A DNA stretch of 64,000 bases from Ancylobacter rudongensis (GTDB lineage Bacteria > Pseudomonadota > Alphaproteobacteria > Rhizobiales > Xanthobacteraceae), in NCBI RefSeq assembly GCF_900100155.1, contig NZ_FMTP01000005.1, positions 248,001 to 312,000 of the forward strand. Direction: 5' to 3'. Below the pieces are notes generated by a model that saw only the letters and a list, made by a program, of their open reading frames with translations, did no database searches and was not told the origin of the DNA. Of the stretch, positions 6,201 to 50,236 are shown in pieces (position 1 is the stretch's first letter; every line of letters starts with the position of its first letter). Both the position numbers and the translations under genes were made by a program.

Positions 6201-8092
6201 TGGCCGGCGTCGGCGACATGTCGGGCGACGTGTTCGGCAATGGCATGATCCTGGAGAACACGATCCGCCTCGTCGCCGCCTTCGACCATCGCGACATCTT
6301 CCTCGATCCCAATCCGGATCCGGAAACCTCGTTCCGCGAGCGCCAGCGGCTGTTCGCGCTGCCGCGCTCCAGCTGGCAGGACTATGACAAGTCGCTGATC
6401 TCGCCCGGCGGCGGCGTGTTCCCGCGCACCGCCAAGAGCATTCCGCTGACCCTGGCGATGCGCGAGGTGCTCGGCTTCGACAAGAGCTCGGCTTCGCCCT
6501 CCGAAGTGATCAGCGCGATCCTGCGGGCGCCGGTGGACCTGTTGTGGTTCGGCGGCATCGGCACCTATGTCCGCGCCTCCAGCGAGACCGACGCGCAGGC
6601 GGGCGACCGCGCCAATGACGCCGTGCGGATCACCGGCAATCAGGTGCGTGCGCGGGTGATCGGCGAGGGCGCCAATCTCGGCGTCACCCAGCGCGGGCGC
6701 ATCGAGGCGGCGCGCCGCGGCGTGCGGCTGAACACCGACGCCATCGACAATTCAGCTGGCGTCAACACCTCCGATATCGAGGTGAACATCAAGATCGCCA
6801 TGGCCCCCGCCTTGCGCGAGGGGCGGCTCGACCCGCAGGCGCGGGCGCAGGTGCTGGCCGGCATGACCGGCGATGTCGCGGCGCTGGTGCTGGCCAACAA
6901 TTATCTGCAGACGCTGGCGCTCTCGCTCGCCGAAATGCGTGGGCTGGACGATCTCGGCTTCCTGCAGCGGCTGATGCAGCGGCTGGAAGGGCGCGGGCTG
7001 CTCGACCGCGCGGTGGAATATCTGCCCTCCGACACCGAGCTGAATGAGCGGCGCGGCCGGGGCGAGGCGCTCACCCGGCCGGAAATGGCGGTGCTGCTGG
7101 CCTATGCCAAGCTTTCCGCCCAGGCCGACCTCCTCGAGACCGGCGTGCCGGATGATCCCTATCTCGCGCGCGAGCTGGCGGCCTATTTCCCCGCCGAGCT
7201 GCGCGAGCATTTCCCGGAAGGGATCGAGCACCACCGGCTGCGGCGCGACATCATCGCCACCCGCCTGTCGAACGCCATGATCAACCATGGTGGCCCGGCC
7301 TTCGTCGCCCGGCTGACCGACGAGACCGGGGCGGGGATCGACAGCATCGCCAAGGCCTTCGCCGTGGTGCGTGACGGTTTCGGGCTCGCCGCCCTCAACC
7401 GCGAGATCGACGCGCTGGACGGTCTGGTGGCGGGCGCGGTGCAGCTCGATCTCTATGGCGTCGTCCAGGACATGCTGCTCGACCGCTCGATCTGGTTCCT
7501 GCGCAATGTCGACCTCCGGCGCAATCTCGACGAGCTGGTCGGCCATTACGCCGCCGGCATCGCCCCGGTGGAAAAGGTGCTGGCCGGGCCGGTGCGCGAA
7601 TTGCTGCCCGAGGAGGCGCGGGTGCTGCACGATGCCCGCATCAGCCAGTGGACGCAGGCCGGGGTGCCCGAGACGCTGGCGCGGCGCATCGCCCGCCTGC
7701 CGGCGGTGGAAAGTGCCACCGACATCGTGCTGATCGCCGACCGCACCCGGGCGCCGCTGGCGGATGCCGCCGTGACCTTCTTCGCAGTCGCGCTGCTGTT
7801 CCGGCTCGACCGCATCCTCGGCCCGGCGCGGACCCTGTCGGTGAGCGACTATTACGACCGGCTGGCGCTGGAGCGGGCGCTGGCGGCTTTCGAGAGCGCC
7901 GTGCGCCGGCTCACCGCCGAGGTGATCGAGGAGCATGGCGCCGGCGTCGCCGGGGTGTCGAGCTGGGCGCGGGCGCGTGGCGAGGTGGTGGAGCGGGCGC
8001 GCAACGGCGTGCACGAGATCGCCGGCTCCGGGCTCAGCGTGTCGAAGCTCTCCGTGGCGGCCAGCCTGATCGGCGATCTGGTGCGGGGGTAG
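3236..8092 (+). CDS. gdhB: NAD-specific glutamate dehydrogenase, large (about 180 kDa) type
   Basis: This 1618-residue protein belongs to the large bacterial NAD-GDH family, which oxidatively deaminates glutamate to 2-oxoglutarate and ammonium. The N-terminal half carries ACT-like regulatory segments (for example VIEIVNDDMPFLLDSIMGAL near residue 100). The catalytic part has GRVARGGLRWSDRPQDFR and LVKAQQVKNAVIVPVGAKGG (around residues 820-865), which include the substrate-binding and catalytic lysines, then GVGDMSGDVFGNGM and GEGANLGVTQ of the NAD fold. A GGGGG ribosome-binding run precedes the tandem ATG codons at 3236 and 3239, so the start is uncertain by one residue. It stands alone, convergent with acs. 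Symbol follows usage for this family in pseudomonads; some genomes call it gdh2. Confidence 0.95.
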   Translation: MMGVEGFLASEDERVARQLVEQADLILQATDGDVPARFAHGLFGRAVAEDVRVYTPHELASLARLAYGHLKVRRRDSSDIRIEQPQAAEGGDRLARVSVIEIVNDDMPFLLDSIMGALNAQGLTASFVVHPIMGVDRDAAGQVTGLVPGETPAGARMRRESLIQIHVPRIEDEGRRAALIEELTLVLNQVRVVVGAWQPMMAQVRAAVTNLTLAPALVPREDREEAIAFLEWLLAGRFTFLGCRHYQATGTPAGAKATVFERRMEDALGLMADEAFRLFRPTGDPRTVSTDLAEALADPSPLIVTKSRAVSNVHRRAWIDVVLVKRYDAQGRVVGGLCIAGLFTATAYTSSVRTIPMLRRKAATVLARAGFAPESHSGRALVKVLETYPRDDLFQIDTTALYQFSLAILQLDEHPRVRVLALNERFDRFVSILVFVPRERYDSDVREKIGHLLAGSFGGQIVAFRPMFLEGPLIRVHFIIERGPGEVPTVNRATLEEAIGAIIRTWGDGFAEALAATVPASKASELMERYAKAFPAGYQAGSAPAEAIDDLRLIEELSDASPVAADFRASALRERGRVSLKVFSYKVPRLLSERVPLLESMGFVVIDERTFTIKPAGGAPVYLHDMLLSRRGGGDIPLDKLGPRLHATLMAVLRGGESDGFNALALNALLGWRDIALLRALGRYLRQVGIPFSQDYLWQTLNAHPALAQKLVALFHARFDPEANDRRAERQEELRAAIEAALADVPSLDEDRILRRFANLISAAVRTNFFQRGPQGGHRPTIAIKFLSAEVEGLPQPRPLFEIFVQSPRVEGIHLRFGRVARGGLRWSDRPQDFRTEVLGLVKAQQVKNAVIVPVGAKGGFVPQQLPAGPREAIQAEGVEAYKLFISSLLDVSDNIEDGRTVHPAHTVQHDEDDPYLVVAADKGTATFSDTANALSLQRGFWLGDAFASGGSVGYDHKAMGITARGAWEAVRRHFREMDVDIRRTPFTVAGVGDMSGDVFGNGMILENTIRLVAAFDHRDIFLDPNPDPETSFRERQRLFALPRSSWQDYDKSLISPGGGVFPRTAKSIPLTLAMREVLGFDKSSASPSEVISAILRAPVDLLWFGGIGTYVRASSETDAQAGDRANDAVRITGNQVRARVIGEGANLGVTQRGRIEAARRGVRLNTDAIDNSAGVNTSDIEVNIKIAMAPALREGRLDPQARAQVLAGMTGDVAALVLANNYLQTLALSLAEMRGLDDLGFLQRLMQRLEGRGLLDRAVEYLPSDTELNERRGRGEALTRPEMAVLLAYAKLSAQADLLETGVPDDPYLARELAAYFPAELREHFPEGIEHHRLRRDIIATRLSNAMINHGGPAFVARLTDETGAGIDSIAKAFAVVRDGFGLAALNREIDALDGLVAGAVQLDLYGVVQDMLLDRSIWFLRNVDLRRNLDELVGHYAAGIAPVEKVLAGPVRELLPEEARVLHDARISQWTQAGVPETLARRIARLPAVESATDIVLIADRTRAPLADAAVTFFAVALLFRLDRILGPARTLSVSDYYDRLALERALAAFESAVRRLTAEVIEEHGAGVAGVSSWARARGEVVERARNGVHEIAGSGLSVSKLSVAASLIGDLVRG

Positions 8093-15650: not shown

Positions 15651-17069
15651 GTGGCGACAGACGATCCGAAAAAGGGTGCTGAGGACAAGGTTGAGGCCGG
15701 GGGCAAGCCCGCGCGCCGCAAGCCGCCGACGCTCGACCTTTCCGCCCGGGAAGTGACGCCCGTTTCCGACGAGGCGGCGACCGCTGAGGCTGTGGTGCCC
15801 GCGTCCAAGCCCGACGCCTCTCAGCCCGTCTCTTCAAAGCCCGACGTCTCGACGGCAGGCGACGCCCTGCCGGACGCGCCCAAGCCGGATACATCACCCG
15901 ACATGCCCCCCGAGACGCTGAAGCCCGATGCCGCCGCCGCGACCGACGAGGTGCCGGTGATCGATGCCACTGGCGACTATGGGAGCGGCAAAGGCGAGGC
16001 GGCCGACGTGCCGCCGCCCGTTCATCCCGTCCCGCCGCCCGCCGAGCCTCGCCCGACGCGCCCGCTCGGCCTGTTCGGCACGCTTGTCGTCGCGCTGCTG
16101 TCCGGCCTGATCGGCGGCGGCTTCGCGCTAGGCGTGGTGTCGACCTTCTACGGCGCCGAGGAGAATGTGGACGCCATCACCGAGCTTGAGGCGCGGGCGC
16201 TGGACCTGCGCCAGCGGCTGGAACTGCTGGAGGCCCGCTCCGGCGAGGCGCCGGCGGCCGGCCTCAATGCTCCCGCCGAGCTGGCGACCCGGCTCGATGC
16301 GCTGGAAAGCGGGCTGAACGCACTCGGCTCCAAGGTTGATGCCCTGCCGGCCGCCCCTGCCACCGCGCCCGCCGCCTCGCCGGATGATGTCGCGGCGGTG
16401 AAGGGCCAGGTCGAGGCGCTGGAGCAGAAGGTGAGCGCGCTTCCCGCGCCGGCCCCGGCGGCCTCGCCCGAAGCTCTCAATGCCGCCACCGCCCGCCTCG
16501 ACGCGTTGGAGACCAAGCTCGCGGCCGCCACTGCCGCGCAGCGCGCCAGCGGACAGGGCACGGCGCAGCTCGTCGTCCTGGGCACGCTGCGCGAGGCGGT
16601 CGTCTCCGGCCGCCCCTTCACCACCGAGCTGAAGGCGGCGCAGGCGCTGCTGGCCGAGGACGCGGTGCCGCTGGCGGCGCTTGAGGATTCCGCTGCCACC
16701 GGCTTTGCCTCCGGCCCGGCGCTTGCCGCGCAGCTGCGCGCCGCCACCGCGCCCGCCCCGGCGACCGATGCGGCCGGCGCGCCGGCGGATGAGGGGATTG
16801 TCGCCACCCTGCTGCAGGGCGCGCAGAAGCTCGTCACCATTCGACGTTCCGACGATGTCTCGGCCTCGCCCGACATCGCCAAGGCCGAGATGGCGCTGAC
16901 GCAGGGTGATTTCGAGGCCGCGCGGGCGGCTCTCGCCGCGCTGCCCGAGGCCGAGCGCGCCGCCGCGCAGCCCGTGCTCGCCGCGCTGGATGCCCGGCAG
17001 GCGGCGCTCGCCACCCTTGCCGAGCTTCATCGGCGCGTGCTCGCCACTCTCGCGGGAGGAAGCCAGTGA
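15651..17069 (+). CDS. Mitofilin-domain inner membrane protein (alphaproteobacterial Mic60 homologue)
   Basis: This 472-residue protein has a Pro/Ala-rich cytoplasmic N-terminal segment with repeated KPD motifs (residues 1-135), one transmembrane helix LFGTLVVALLSGLIGGGFALG, a coiled-coil-prone region (ITELEARALDLRQRLELLEAR onward), and a C-terminal mitofilin-like domain with ALTQGDFEAARAALAALPEAE. The GTG start at 15651 follows AGGTAAGGAC. In Alphaproteobacteria such proteins are encoded beside haem genes and are homologues of mitochondrial Mic60, which shapes cristae. The stop overlaps the hemY-like start. Confidence 0.85.
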   Translation: MATDDPKKGAEDKVEAGGKPARRKPPTLDLSAREVTPVSDEAATAEAVVPASKPDASQPVSSKPDVSTAGDALPDAPKPDTSPDMPPETLKPDAAAATDEVPVIDATGDYGSGKGEAADVPPPVHPVPPPAEPRPTRPLGLFGTLVVALLSGLIGGGFALGVVSTFYGAEENVDAITELEARALDLRQRLELLEARSGEAPAAGLNAPAELATRLDALESGLNALGSKVDALPAAPATAPAASPDDVAAVKGQVEALEQKVSALPAPAPAASPEALNAATARLDALETKLAAATAAQRASGQGTAQLVVLGTLREAVVSGRPFTTELKAAQALLAEDAVPLAALEDSAATGFASGPALAAQLRAATAPAPATDAAGAPADEGIVATLLQGAQKLVTIRRSDDVSASPDIAKAEMALTQGDFEAARAALAALPEAERAAAQPVLAALDARQAALATLAELHRRVLATLAGGSQ

Positions 17070-18734: not shown

Positions 18735-18916
18735 GCAAAAAAAAGCGCGCCATGCGGCGCGCTGATTTCCCCGTAGAGGTGCCCGGTCAGAAGCCGGCCG
18801 CTCGTCAAGCGGCCGGAGGGTACAGGTGCGGTCGGAGTACATCCGTCCTGACCGCCCACATCCGGCGAGGCACTGACGAGGTGCCAACATGCCGGAAGCC
18901 CTGTTCTGACTGGGTT
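18735..18916 (-). ncRNA. Unassigned stand-alone structured RNA (about 180 nt with terminator)
   Basis: On the minus strand a promoter-like pair (TTGCAT at 18950-18945, TATAGG at 18926-18921, 18-bp spacer) is followed within about 7 nt by the 5' arm of a closing helix: CCC-A-GTCAGAA (18914-18904) pairs with TTCTGAC-C-GGG (18792-18782). The interior can form a 9-bp hairpin (18794-18816), a nested hairpin around 18862-18895 and GCGGTC/GACCGC. The heptamers CTCGTCA (18880-18874) and TGACGAG (18807-18801) are exactly complementary; they can either kiss as two loops or pair directly in a long rod. A U8 intrinsic terminator closes the unit. No open frame of note lies within. A rod-like fold with paired ends resembles 6S RNA, but no conserved 6S sequence was recognised, so the family is left open. 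Confidence 0.6.
18737..18763 (-). terminator. Strong intrinsic terminator of the minus-strand RNA
   Basis: Reading the minus strand, an 8-bp stem AGCGCGCC / GGCGCGCT with loop GCAT is followed directly by eight T residues. It is 365 bp beyond the cobT stop, and the RNA unit lies between, so it most likely ends that RNA and any cobT read-through. Confidence 0.85.
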
Positions 18917-18920
18917 GAAG

Positions 18921-18950
18921 CCTATATGGGGCGGCCTTCCGCCGATGCAA
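18921..18950 (-). promoter_or_regulatory. Putative sigma-70 promoter of the minus-strand RNA
   Basis: TTGCAT (-35) and TATAGG (-10) are separated by 18 bp. The predicted start, near 18914-18916, coincides with the 5' base of the closing helix. The -35 has the TTG core and the -10 matches four of six positions. Confidence 0.5.
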
Positions 18951-18976
18951 GGGGGCGGCGCCCGATACAGCGCCAC

Positions 18977-19075
18977 GCCGTCCTCCCGGACGGCGGCAGG
19001 CCGATCCGGGATCGTTTACCCGACCTTCCGCGGCGCGATCCCGGCTCTTCGCTGCGCTGCGGCCGGGATGACGGC
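18977..19075. repeat. Dispersed palindromic repeat, family B copy 1
   Basis: The stretch begins with the hairpin CCGTCCTCCCGGACGG, continues with GATCCGGGATCG, and ends GGCCGGGATGACGGC. It shares the GTCCGGGAT/ATCCCGGAC-type arms with copies at 42523, 46168, 51803, 52390, 53139 and 60547. It lies between the structured RNA and the cobT stop. Nothing coding is seen in 18659-19127. Confidence 0.75.
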
Positions 19076-19127: not shown

Positions 19128-21107
19128 TCAATGCACCCGGCGGGTAGAGAGCGGGGTGGGGGAGGGGCGGCCGGCAGGCTTGCCCGCCTTGGCTGCGGGC
19201 GCGAAGGCGGCGGCGCTGCGGCCCTTCTGCTCCTTGGCACCGCCGCGCGCGGATTGCTCGCCGAACAGTTCCGCCAGCTTGTCGGTCATCGCGCCGCCCA
19301 GTTCCTCGGCGTCGACAATGGTGACGGCGCGCTTGTAGTAGCGCGTCACGTCATGACCGATGCCGATGGCGATCAGTTCGACCGGGGACTTGTCCTCGAT
19401 CTGCTGGATGATCCAGCGCAGATGCCGCTCCAGATAATTGCCGGGATTCACCGAGAGGGTGGAATCGTCGACCGGCGCGCCGTCGGAGATCATCATCAGG
19501 ATCCGGCGCGATTCCGTGCGCGCCAGCAGGCGGTTATGCGCCCATTCCAGCGCCTCGCCGTCGATGTTCTCCTTCAGCAGCCCCTCGCGCATCATCAGGC
19601 CGAGATTGCGCCGGGCGCGGCGCCAGGGGGCGTCGGCGGATTTGTAGATGATGTGGCGCAGGTCGTTCAGCCGGCCGGGGGCGCCGGGCTTGCCGGCCGA
19701 GAGCCACGCCTCGCGCGCCTGGCCGCCCTTCCACGCCTTGGTGGTGAAGCCGAGAATCTCGACCTTGACGCCGCAGCGCTCCAGCGTGCGCGCCAGAATA
19801 TCGGCGCAGGCGGCCGCCACGGTGATCGGGCGCCCTCGCATCGAGCCGGAATTGTCGAGCAGCAGGGTGACGACGGTGTCGCGGAAATCGGTGTCGCGCT
19901 CGCGCTTGAACGAGAGCGGCTGCATCGGGTCCAGAATGATGCGGTGCAGGCGCGCCGGGTCGAGCATGCCTTCTTCGAGGTCGAACTCCCAGCCCCGGTT
20001 CTGCTGCGCCATCAGCTTGCGCTGCAGCCGGTTGGCGAGACGGGCGACGATGCCGGACAGGTGCACCAGCTGCTTGTCGAGATGAGCGCGCAGCCGCGCC
20101 AGCTCGTCGGCGTCGCACAGCTCGTCCGCGTTCACCGTCTCGTCGAAGCGCGGGGTGAAGGGGTGGTATTCCGGCGGGCGCGGCTCGGCCGGCACCGCGT
20201 TCTCCGGCTTCCAGGGCTCGGAGGCATCGTCGGATTCGCCCAGCTCGGCATCGTCGGAAAGCTCGGAATTGGGCTGGTCCTGCTGCTCCTCGGATTCCTC
20301 CGGGTTCTGGTCGGAGGACAGGTCGGTGTCGACCTCGGTCTGGCCCTCGGCGTTGTCTTCCTCCTCGGAATCGCTGCCCTTGCCGTTGTCGTCGTCGCGG
20401 CTGTCATCGGCCTCGGTGGAGGGGTCGTTGTTCTCGTCGAAGGGGGCGATGTCCTCGCCCATGCCGAGCGAGGAGAGCAGGTCGCGCATCGCCTCGGCGA
20501 AGCGGGCCTGGTTGTCGGCGGCGCCGGAAAGCTCGTCGAGTGCGCTAGCGCCGTGCTCCTCGATGAAGCCACGCCACAGATTGACCATTTCGCGCGCCGC
20601 GGCGGGCGGGGCCATGCCGGTCATGCGCTCGCGCAGGATGAGCGAGAGCGCATGCTCCAGCGGCGCGTCGGAGCGGTCGGCCAGATTGGCGTAATTGGCC
20701 TTCTGGTAGCGGTCCTCCAGCATGGCGGAGAGATTCAGCGCCACGCCGTCCATGCGCAGGGCGCCGAGCGATTCGCAGCGCGTCTGCTCGGCGGCTTCAA
20801 ATGCGGCGCGGGCCTCCTGGCCCATCGGCACCAGCCGCTGATGCACCTTGGGGTCGTGGCAGGCCATGCGCAGCGCCATGGAATCGGCATGGCCGCGCAT
20901 GATGGCGGCGTCCTGCTTCGACATGCGCCTTGCCGGCTCGGGCAGGCGGGCGCGCCCGTCGGCAAAGCCGGGCTTTTCCGAGCCGAAGGTCACGTCGATC
21001 TCGCGATTGCCGGCAATGGCGCGCAGGCAGCCGGTGACGGCGCGCTTGAGCGGCTCGGTCGGGGCTTCCTTGGGCGGGGTGCGGCTGGTGCGGTTCGACG
21101 TGGACAT
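19128..21107 (-). CDS. cobT: Aerobic cobaltochelatase subunit CobT
   Basis: CobT with CobS and CobN inserts cobalt into hydrogenobyrinic acid a,c-diamide in aerobic cobalamin synthesis. The 659-residue protein has the conserved N terminus [20 protein letters not shown], a very acidic central stretch ([19 protein letters not shown] and following, about residues 215-265), and a C-terminal VWA domain whose MIDAS motif DNSGSMRG starts near residue 418, with [11 protein letters not shown] later. ATG 21107 is the family start; the upstream frame is unconserved. cobS is 77 bp upstream in the same direction. CobN is not in the window. Confidence 0.96.
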
Positions 21108-21184
21108 GGCAAGCCTTGAATCTGGGCAGCCTTCTCCCGATGGAGAAGGCGGGACCGGCGGCCGGCCGGTCCCGGGGATGGCCG

Positions 21185-22171
21185 TCAGGACATGACGACG
21201 TTGATGGCCGACTCGGTCAGTTCCTTGCCGAAGCAGCGCTGGTAGAACTCGGCCACCAGCGGGCGCTCCAGCTCGTCGCACTTGTTGAGGAAGGTGACGC
21301 GGAACGAGAAGGCCAGTTCCTGGAAGATCTCGGCGTTCTCGGCCCAGGTGATGACCGTGCGCGGGCTCATCACGGTCGACAGGTCGCCATTGATGAAGGC
21401 CTGCCGGGTGAGATCGGCCAGGCGCACCATGCGGGCGGCGACGTCGCGGCCTTCCGGCGTCTGCAGGTTCTTGGCCTTGGAGACGACGATGTCGACCTCC
21501 TTGTCATGGGCCAGGTAGTTCAGCGTGGTGACGATGGACCAGCGGTCCATCTGCGCCTGGTTGATCTGCTGGGTGCCGTGATAAAGGCCGGTGGTGTCGC
21601 CGAGGCCGATGGTGTTGGCGGTCGAGAACAGGCGGAAGGCGCCGTGCGGGCGGATGACCCGGTTCTGGTCCAGCAGCGTCAGGCGACCGGCGGATTCGAG
21701 CACGCGCTGGATCACGAACATCACGTCCGGGCGGCCGGCGTCGTACTCATCGAACACCAGGGCGACGTTGTTCTGGTAGGCCCAGGGCAGGATGCCGTCG
21801 CGGAATTCGGTGACCTGAAGCCCATCGCGCACCACGATCGCGTCCTTGCCGATCAGGTCGATGCGGCTGATGTGGCTGTCGAGGTTGATGCGCACGCAGG
21901 GCCAGTTGAGCCGGGCAGCGACCTGCTCGATATGGCTGGATTTGCCGGTGCCGTGATAGCCCGTGACCATCACCCGGCGGTTATGGGCAAAGCCGGCGAG
22001 GATGGCGAGGGTGGTCGGCCGGTCGAACAGATAGTCGGGATCGATTTCCGGCACATGGGCGTCCGGTTCGGCGTAGGCCGGCACATCCAGATCGACATCG
22101 ATGCCGAACACCTGACGAACAGAGAGCTTCATGTCCGGCAGCGCGGGCGCTTGCGTGAGCGGGGCGGTCAT
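21185..22171 (-). CDS. cobS: Aerobic cobaltochelatase subunit CobS (AAA+ ATPase)
   Basis: CobS is the AAA+ motor subunit of cobaltochelatase. The 328-residue product shows Walker [11 protein letters not shown], Walker [11 protein letters not shown], the sensor-like [19 protein letters not shown] and the lid residues around [16 protein letters not shown] 22171 is preceded by GGAGGAAGA, an excellent ribosome-binding site, and was preferred over an in-frame ATG 7 codons upstream. It is followed by cobT, the conserved partner order. Confidence 0.97.
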
Positions 22172-49976: not shown

Positions 49977-50236
49977 GGCCGGGTTTCCTCGCATGGCTGC
50001 GGCACGCTAGAATGGCGCTGTTACGCGGCTGTGACCTCCGTAGTCTCCCGCAAAAGGCCGTCAAAACTTGACTCACTGGCGCGCGGCGCTTACTAGCCCC
50101 ACATCCTCGCAGACCCCGCGAGCCGATCCGCCGCCCGGCCCTTGAGGCCGGAGGTCAACGCCCGACAGCGCCATGCGCCCTCGGGCGCCGTTCGGCGTTG
50201 CGCTGTGAGCTGTGGGAAAAGGACCGGAGCGAACGC

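Follow-up and report, generated by a model that had tools for sequence, protein, structure and literature searches.

Several described RNAs lie close to the one reported here. OLE, GOLLD and ROOL are large ornate RNAs that self-assemble through kissing loops among other contacts, with switching palindromic loops, and their oligomers have been seen by cryo-EM; in the available excerpt of that study, the replacement of one palindrome by another is taken as the sign of an intermolecular contact (PMC12286853). Among the Rhizobiales, the stress sRNA EcpR1 (SmelC291) consists of two stem-loops and targets dnaA and gcrA, and in the accessible portion of the report its conservation spans several families of the order and its loop is invariant (PMC4414408). 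The RpoHI/RpoHII sRNAs of Rhodobacter sphaeroides also belong to an alphaproteobacterial RpoH network and are likened here by description only, from partial text of two reports (PMC8307010, PMC9779115). 6S RNA (RF00013) is a stand-alone transcript with paired ends that forms a single long rod with a central bubble. In dimerisation initiation hairpins, a loop with a six-base palindrome kisses its own copy.

We analysed a window of 64,000 nucleotides of Ancylobacter rudongensis DNA, in which the minus strand carries over positions 18951-18737 a promoter, followed by a closed, branched RNA and then a terminator. That this is a real, new family of stand-alone structured RNAs is near certain. In our preferred reading (rough probability 0.57) it would be an RpoH-driven, self-assembling RNA that presents the loop of its helix P4 to a partner. 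It resembles OLE, GOLLD and ROOL, as these are described in the excerpt, in its probable kissing loops and, in relatives of class B, its palindromic loops, but has a core of ~135 nt, a heat-shock-type promoter and no Rfam match, and its dimerisation is a proposal. With EcpR1 it shares the stress link, the spread over several families of the same order and an invariant loop; the architecture differs, and the EcpR1 loop motif UCCGCCGCAUCU, as given in the excerpt of PMC4414408, has 0 matches in the whole window. The likeness to dimerisation initiation hairpins applies to a palindromic sister class alone (class B, below), and the present RNA is a cellular one with a heat-shock-type promoter. The features of the locus are as follows.

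18737..18916, minus strand: whole predicted transcript, ~180 nt; its ends are predicted from the promoter (start placed ~7 nt past the -10 box) and the terminator (end at the U-run)
18946..18951, minus strand: -35 box CTTGCA of RpoH (sigma-32) type, from pattern scan and consensus
18924..18930, minus strand: -10 box CCCATAT of RpoH type, with a 15-base spacer from the -35 box
18781..18914, minus strand: conserved structured core (domain I); models R1 and R2 span it, and 30/30 genus genomes have it
18905..18914, minus strand: P1, 5' arm CCCAGTCAGA; one pair varies between C-G (8/13 rows) and U-A (5/13)
18782..18791, minus strand: P1, 3' arm TCTGACCGGG, from the covariation analysis
18899..18902, minus strand: P1b, 5' arm AGGG, from the RNAalifold consensus; its pairs hold in 10-13 of the 13 rows
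18817..18820, minus strand: P1b, 3' arm CCCT, from the RNAalifold consensus
18891..18898, minus strand: P2, 5' arm CTTCCGGC; 2/8 pairs double-changed, one position unpaired in 12/13 rows
18859..18866, minus strand: P2, 3' arm GCCGGATG, from the covariation analysis
18869..18885, minus strand: P3 hairpin GGCAC-CTCGTCA-GTGCC; 100% of cells paired, 2/5 pairs double-changed
18874..18880, minus strand: P3 loop CTCGTCA, of which TCGTCA (18874-18879) is complementary to the P5 loop
18850..18858, minus strand: P4, 5' arm; 7/10 pairs double-changed, 91.4% of cells paired
18825..18833, minus strand: P4, 3' arm, from the covariation analysis
18834..18849, minus strand: P4 apical element AGGACGGATGTACTCC, with a bulged A, a 3-bp helix GGA/TCC and the nine-base loop CGGATGTAC; identical in 13/13 sequences of alignment A1
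18794..18816, minus strand: P5 hairpin CCGGCCGC-TTGACGA-GCGGCCGG; 99% of cells paired, 3/8 pairs double-changed
18802..18808, minus strand: P5 loop TTGACGA, of which TGACGA (18802-18807) is complementary to the P3 loop
18737..18763, minus strand: intrinsic terminator, stem and U-run, AGCGCGCC-GCAT-GGCGCGCT; eight T in a row, the first one paired

A preliminary description of this stretch had proposed a stand-alone structured RNA on the minus strand, and all the parts it described are present: a closing helix between CCCAGTCAGA (18905-18914) and TCTGACCGGG (18782-18791), whose 5' arm begins 9 bases past the -10 box, a terminator at 18763-18737 with its run of eight T, the first of them paired, and a plausible promoter. 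It recognised the structured RNA, but not that the promoter is of RpoH type, that the P4 loop is invariant or that a palindromic sister class exists; its interval (18735..18950) truncates the -35 box by one base. The fold energy of -103.3 kcal/mol compares with -85.8 +/- 4.6 in dinucleotide shuffles (z = -3.8; 0/200 as good). The terminator is the single site found by a scan of 1.6 kb vs 0.5 expected from shuffles, which is weak taken alone.

The promoter boxes are of RpoH rather than sigma-70 type, and a sigma-70 promoter scan at the locus found none. Published consensus sequences are CTTGAA-N15-16-CCTATAT for RpoH1 and CTTGCC-N15-16-CCTATCT for RpoH2 (Barnett et al. 2012, as quoted in the available part of PMC4843759). 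The window promoter, CTTGCA-N15-CCCATAT, has one change from the RpoH1 consensus in each box and fits the RpoH type. The organism behind both consensus sequences is presumably Sinorhizobium meliloti. Across the family, 53/75 sites have the pattern CTTG[ACT][ACG]-N14..17-C[CT][CT]A[TGA][ACT]T, which was written after seeing the sequences, at a distance of 50-130 bases upstream from the P4 motif; dinucleotide-shuffled versions of these stretches would give 0.02. The 75 sites contain a few duplicated under two locus ids as well as second tandem units; L063, L110 and L101 were not counted, nor were sites with <120 upstream bases. Among the 22 misses about a dozen have both boxes with about one base changed (e.g. 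ACCATCT), and at L073 the examined stretch stops within the box. The remaining nine are without RpoH boxes, namely four second tandem units, L059, L136, L137, L138 and L065. In the same genome a similar pattern is found upstream of 2/3 hsp20-family loci and 1/2 groES loci, a suggestive comparison only, for which the pattern was modified slightly and the search extended further; with a stricter pattern (A required after CTTGN) neither groES locus gave a match. Control of the RNA gene by RpoH appears quite likely.

The structure was evaluated on alignment A1, which holds 13 core sequences from 12 genus genomes, one of them with two units, using a hand-written structure of 46 pairs that includes six kissing pairs. 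Paired cells make up 94.5% of 596, as compared to a mean of 88.0% in shuffles (0/500 reach it). The preliminary description had suggested related genomes as a check for covarying pairs, and this comes out in its favour: 16/46 pairs are changed on both sides vs 7.5 in shuffles, corresponding to 43 vs 12.4 cells (0/500 shuffles as good in each case). The covariation score of 0.246 vs 0.123 is equally beyond the shuffles (0/500 as high), while a fifth measure, further pair types, gives 31 vs 27.6 and is reached by 28/500. Sliding the partners by 1-3 columns lowers pairing to 29-45%. RNAalifold without a supplied structure recovers the same helices and adds P1b. The resulting model is a fold of two linked three-way junctions comprising P1, P1b, P2/P3, P4 and P5. 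Open reading frames cover the region; a coding reading was set aside because the helices covary and the alignment contains a single-base gap.

The two complementary heptamers of the preliminary description, CTCGTCA and TGACGAG, map to the hairpin loops of P3 (18874-18880) and P5 (18802-18808). This holds for the whole of the first and for TGACGA of the second, the final G of which (18801) is the first base of the stem. Both a kissing and a rod-like fold had been offered. With both heptamers borne in loops, we favour the kissing fold over the rod, since the P3 and P5 stems covary independently and the loop complementarity survives double changes elsewhere. The common Ancylobacter loop pair UCGUCA/UGACGA is replaced by ACGUCA/UGACGU in Taklimakanibacter, Prosthecomicrobium and a family f14 genome, by GCAUCA/UGAUGC in Chthonobacter and by UUGUCG/UGACAA in second Kaistia copies. 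Double changes affect three of the six loop pairs, 49/127 (UA, AU, GC), 50/126 (CG, UA) and 51/125 (GC, AU); all of them come from other genera, and the kissing helix shows no double change within the genus (the 13 rows of A1).

Over 17 loop pairs, 93/102 cells are paired, and after reshuffling of the P5 loops the average is 86.8 (6/20000 reach 93). The loop hexamers, 17 rows here and 8 others, were aligned by hand after inspection, and the rows are not phylogenetically independent. They were read by hand because the automatic hairpin finder proved too crude: it returned the expected loops in many rows and competing hairpins in others, some Ancylobacter included. Microvirga mostly has 5/6 loop pairs, as have A. 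vacuolatus, A. defluvii, L117 and L138; L089 and L134 have 4/6. L065 was excluded from these rows since its promoter and P3 look broken. We consider a loop-loop contact between P3 and P5 likely. The RNA of the window itself belongs to this class with two complementary loops (class A), in which the kiss may be made within one molecule or between two, no feature of class A distinguishing the intramolecular from the intermolecular form.

A covarying palindromic loop is found in relatives of class B only, which comprises Kaistia, family f35 and a Bosea MAG and in which P3 is not complementary to P5. Genomes of the Kaistia-type genus g123 (L059, L125, L136, L137, L138) carry a second copy with class A loops alongside the class B copy; in L059, L136, L137 and L138 these second copies have no RpoH-type pattern. 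Read by eye and by folding, P3 of class B ends in a GNRA tetraloop (GCAA, GAGA, GUAA, GAAA) in 9/12 RNAs, the exceptions being L072, L128 and L135. P5 carries one of eight palindromes: ACUAGU, GCUAGC, ACCGGU, UCCGGA, UCUAGA, CCUAGG, AUGCAU and GUGCAC. All 24/24 half-pairs of the palindromes are matched vs 13.8 in shuffles, 1/20000 of which is as good, and the outer pair of the CUAG set takes the forms A-U, U-A, G-C and C-G. L122 and L129, whose whole P5 hairpins are near-perfect palindromes and uninformative on kissing, were kept out of the class B rows.

The palindromes relate to their hairpins in different ways. Six of the 12 P5 hairpins have a palindrome offset by half a base from the hairpin register, and the palindrome of L133 is entirely within an open eight-base loop, so extension of the stem fails as an explanation for seven of 12. 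In L061, L068 and L060 palindrome and hairpin share a centre and stem extension could account for the palindrome; in L113 and L072 the predicted P5 hairpin is shifted. The lowest-energy hairpins of L071, L128 and L135 take up palindrome bases and leave a three-base loop, so that a kiss there would cost closing pairs. By the palindrome-to-palindrome reasoning in the excerpt of PMC12286853, class B RNAs would be dimers.

Four Ancylobacter loci (L088, L078, L108 and L097, from A. defluvii, A. oerskovii, A. sonchi and A. sp. Lp-2) contain tandem units, with P4 motifs 256-285 nt apart and a linker that folds at -77 to -96 kcal/mol. The linker holds the long inverted repeat CCCGACAGGGTGA/TCACCCTGTCGGG, with one base different in L088. 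The RpoH-type pattern precedes the first unit only. By eye, a hairpin followed by four U lies behind the second unit in L108 and L097, and no clear terminator was seen after it in L088 and L078. These units look like a dimer made as one chain. A dimeric working form seems to us slightly favoured by the palindromes and tandem units; its odds are tempered by the several class B hairpins that can close over their own palindrome. A fuller version of this proposal is put forward tentatively, at somewhat less than even odds: that self-assembly is conserved while the contact switches between P3-P5 and P5-P5, with tandem units in some species, and that the dimer shows two invariant loops to a stress partner.

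Alternatively, the RNA could act as a monomer, the P3-P5 kiss serving as an intramolecular clamp that orients P4 and class B using GNRA docking instead, with palindromes that are incidental or part of the stem. The P3 tetraloop in 9/12 class B RNAs fits this, as a swap between kissing loop and tetraloop requires no second molecule, and several P5 hairpins close over the palindrome unaided. Such a monomer would have to accommodate eight different P5 palindromes, as good as which only 1/20000 half-shuffles are, seven of 12 palindromes beyond the reach of stem extension, and linked tandem units in four species. We regard it as possible, with the odds clearly against it.

The most constant part of the RNA is the P4 loop. 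GGACGGAUGUACUCC is identical in 13/13 aligned genus sequences and nearly invariant across families. The pattern scan used in other families selects for this loop, and pattern-free model matches also keep it. Variants occur in L053 and L138; the GCA-loop-TGC variant of L053 preserves the small helix by a compensated pair change. In the literature searched, the 15-base loop in four spellings gave no match. We infer that the P4 loop binds a protein or ribosomal partner, and a protein partner has about even odds. Because of its near-invariance across families, a protein or rRNA partner suits the loop better than many mRNAs.

In the self-assembly reading, RNA polymerase with RpoH would make the ~180-nt RNA under heat or other protein-damaging stress, and the transcript would fold into its two linked three-way junctions. 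The seven-base loops of P3 and P5 would then form a six-pair kissing contact, within or between molecules, and in class B two molecules would pair through their P5 palindromes; the Ancylobacter species with tandem units would produce the dimer as a single chain. So assembled, the RNA would offer the P4 loop (GGA-CGGAUGUAC-UCC) to its partner, probably a protein, which might be sequestered or scaffolded by the RNA during stress. The gene, helices, loop complementarity, palindromes, promoter type and invariant loop are read from the sequence, whereas heat-shock expression, dimerisation, the protein partner and the outcome are our interpretation. Heat-shock regulons are usually seen as lists of chaperones and proteases, to which a structured RNA of RpoH type would add an RNA arm. 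If the kiss is intermolecular, the family offers a small, tractable natural case of RNA self-assembly with two interchangeable contact solutions in related bacteria, and if the self-assembly reading is true, an as yet undescribed kind of small stress assembly built from RNA alone.

A trans-acting sRNA, in which the P4 loop or exposed P3/P5 loops seed pairing with mRNAs, would be compatible with either fold. Invariance of a loop is typical of a seed, EcpR1 being an example according to the excerpt of PMC4414408, and the promoter is of a stress type. The full complement GGAGTACATCCGTCC, with <=2 mismatches, is hardly enriched, with 4, 5, 3 and 5 sites in four genomes vs 3, 3, 2 and 4 for the backwards control, counts which include the RNA gene itself; shorter seeds are possible. 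As the near-invariant loop also fits a protein or rRNA partner better, we regard an sRNA of this type as rather unlikely.

The distribution of the RNA centres on the genus. When 198 family genomes were searched at the DNA level, 15 matched: the matches were long in 12 genomes of the genus (the window's included) and spanned only 24-33 bases in three genomes of other genera. Model R1 matches 30/30 sampled Ancylobacter genomes, five of them twice; family-wide it matches 30/391 genomes, all Ancylobacter (1/47 genera), and order-wide 12/397 genomes in 6/141 genera. Model R2, built from 36 aligned matches, raises the latter to 22/397 genomes in 8/141 genera. One of these matches, L132, was judged chance, the P4 motif being absent; without it 21 genomes remain and, as its genus has another match, still 8 genera. 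In the class, R2 matches 2/367 genomes, the window's own and the coding coincidence L139, and nothing convincing was found outside the order. The first pass of the wide searches scores about eight candidates per genome, which makes absences weak, and the model E-values are rough owing to a shortened calibration.

A pattern scan of named genomes found 63 stretches, mainly in Ancylobacter, Microvirga and Kaistia, with rarer members in Prosthecomicrobium, Chthonobacter, Taklimakanibacter and a few others. R1 scores 62/63 of these sites at E up to 1, L063 and L110 among them. We judged L063, L110 and L139 to be coding coincidences, since their matches lie in the reading frame of what we take to be a polyphosphate-kinase-like protein. 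L101 (Photobacterium), which has no model match, was judged chance or coding, as were the matches on 6/7 viral contigs. On the seventh, L162, a 29.7-bit model match at ~7070-7202 is apparently intergenic and has a possible CCCUAG/CUAGGG loop pair; it may be a phage-borne relative or chance.

Plasmids also carry the RNA. Microvirga sp. VF16 has copies on its chromosome and two plasmids (L066, L169, L171), and further Microvirga plasmid copies are L170 (M. lotononidis) and L117 (M. roseola), with several copies per genome; the core of L169 begins 22 bases past an IS256 transposase gene. Under three Microvirga plasmid matches the records list no features. The M. lotononidis record is barely annotated, and in the two well-annotated records, whose feature table omits RNA genes, nothing is annotated at the match. 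The RNA family is probably missing from annotations. In many members beyond Ancylobacter the core is followed on its 3' side by a conserved domain II, GCCCAGGC-CCGUAG ... CCGGA-GCCUGGGC with U-rich sequence behind it; its hairpin (GCCCAGGCCCGUAG...CCGGAGCCUGGGC) is present in L061, L066 and other Kaistia, Microvirga, Prosthecomicrobium, Chthonobacter and f35 loci. It looks like a terminator. The Ancylobacter alignment has no domain II, with a plain terminator or other 3' end instead.

The neighbours of the RNA differ by genus. In the window they are hemY and cobT, with cobT (19128-21281, minus strand) directly upstream; in Microvirga they are other genes, and at four Kaistia-type loci the RNA stands beside an RNase D-like gene, a name we presume from the start of its peptide. 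We conclude that the RNA is an independent unit, since it has its own promoter and terminator and its neighbours differ between genera. That cobT lies directly upstream on the same strand could suggest a read-through or 3' UTR product, or a cis element, of this gene, but an RpoH-type promoter stands between cobT and the RNA and the same RNA is found beside other genes elsewhere, Microvirga plasmids included, making a cobT product very improbable.

In agreement with the preliminary description, which recognised no RNA family, a scan of the region with Rfam 15 gave no family at or above its gathering score. Rows below threshold were judged chance; the best of them, isrK (29.1 of 50 bits, E 1.7e-4), matches only the terminator, a single hairpin and the bases that separate the two. 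Rfam scans of 11 relatives found none for the RNA, the only hit being a tRNA elsewhere in L050, and those of one Microvirga and one Kaistia member no gathering-score match; among the literature matches listed, no title or abstract start describes the RNA. The resemblance to 6S RNA noted in the preliminary description does not hold: closed ends and stand-alone transcription could indicate a 6S-like regulator of RNA polymerase, but RF00013 has no row in the region even at E up to 10, the fold is branched instead of a single rod, and the genome has a separate 6S gene at C11:112367-112522 (90.5 bits), outside the window, so that membership is refuted and a 6S-like role scarcely credible. A CsrA/RsmA sponge acting through ACGGAUG of the P4 loop, which resembles a CsrA site in motif alone, is as remote in this organism, as the genome has no CsrA (PF02599) match in a search that was positive in 3/14 control genomes.

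Three further observations concern the surroundings of the RNA gene and the rest of the window. Between the RNA and cobT, positions 18978-19075 form a stretch rich in inverted repeats with CCGGGATGACG-like pieces, similar pieces of which also flank some orthologous RNA copies; it looks like a dispersed palindromic repeat. Upstream of hemY, 15651-17069 on the plus strand encodes a long Ala/Pro-rich protein with a weak Pfam match below the cut-off. The Rfam scan of the window also identified an ffh sRNA (RF01793) at 50144-50195 on the plus strand, with 57.9 bits at a cut-off of 35.
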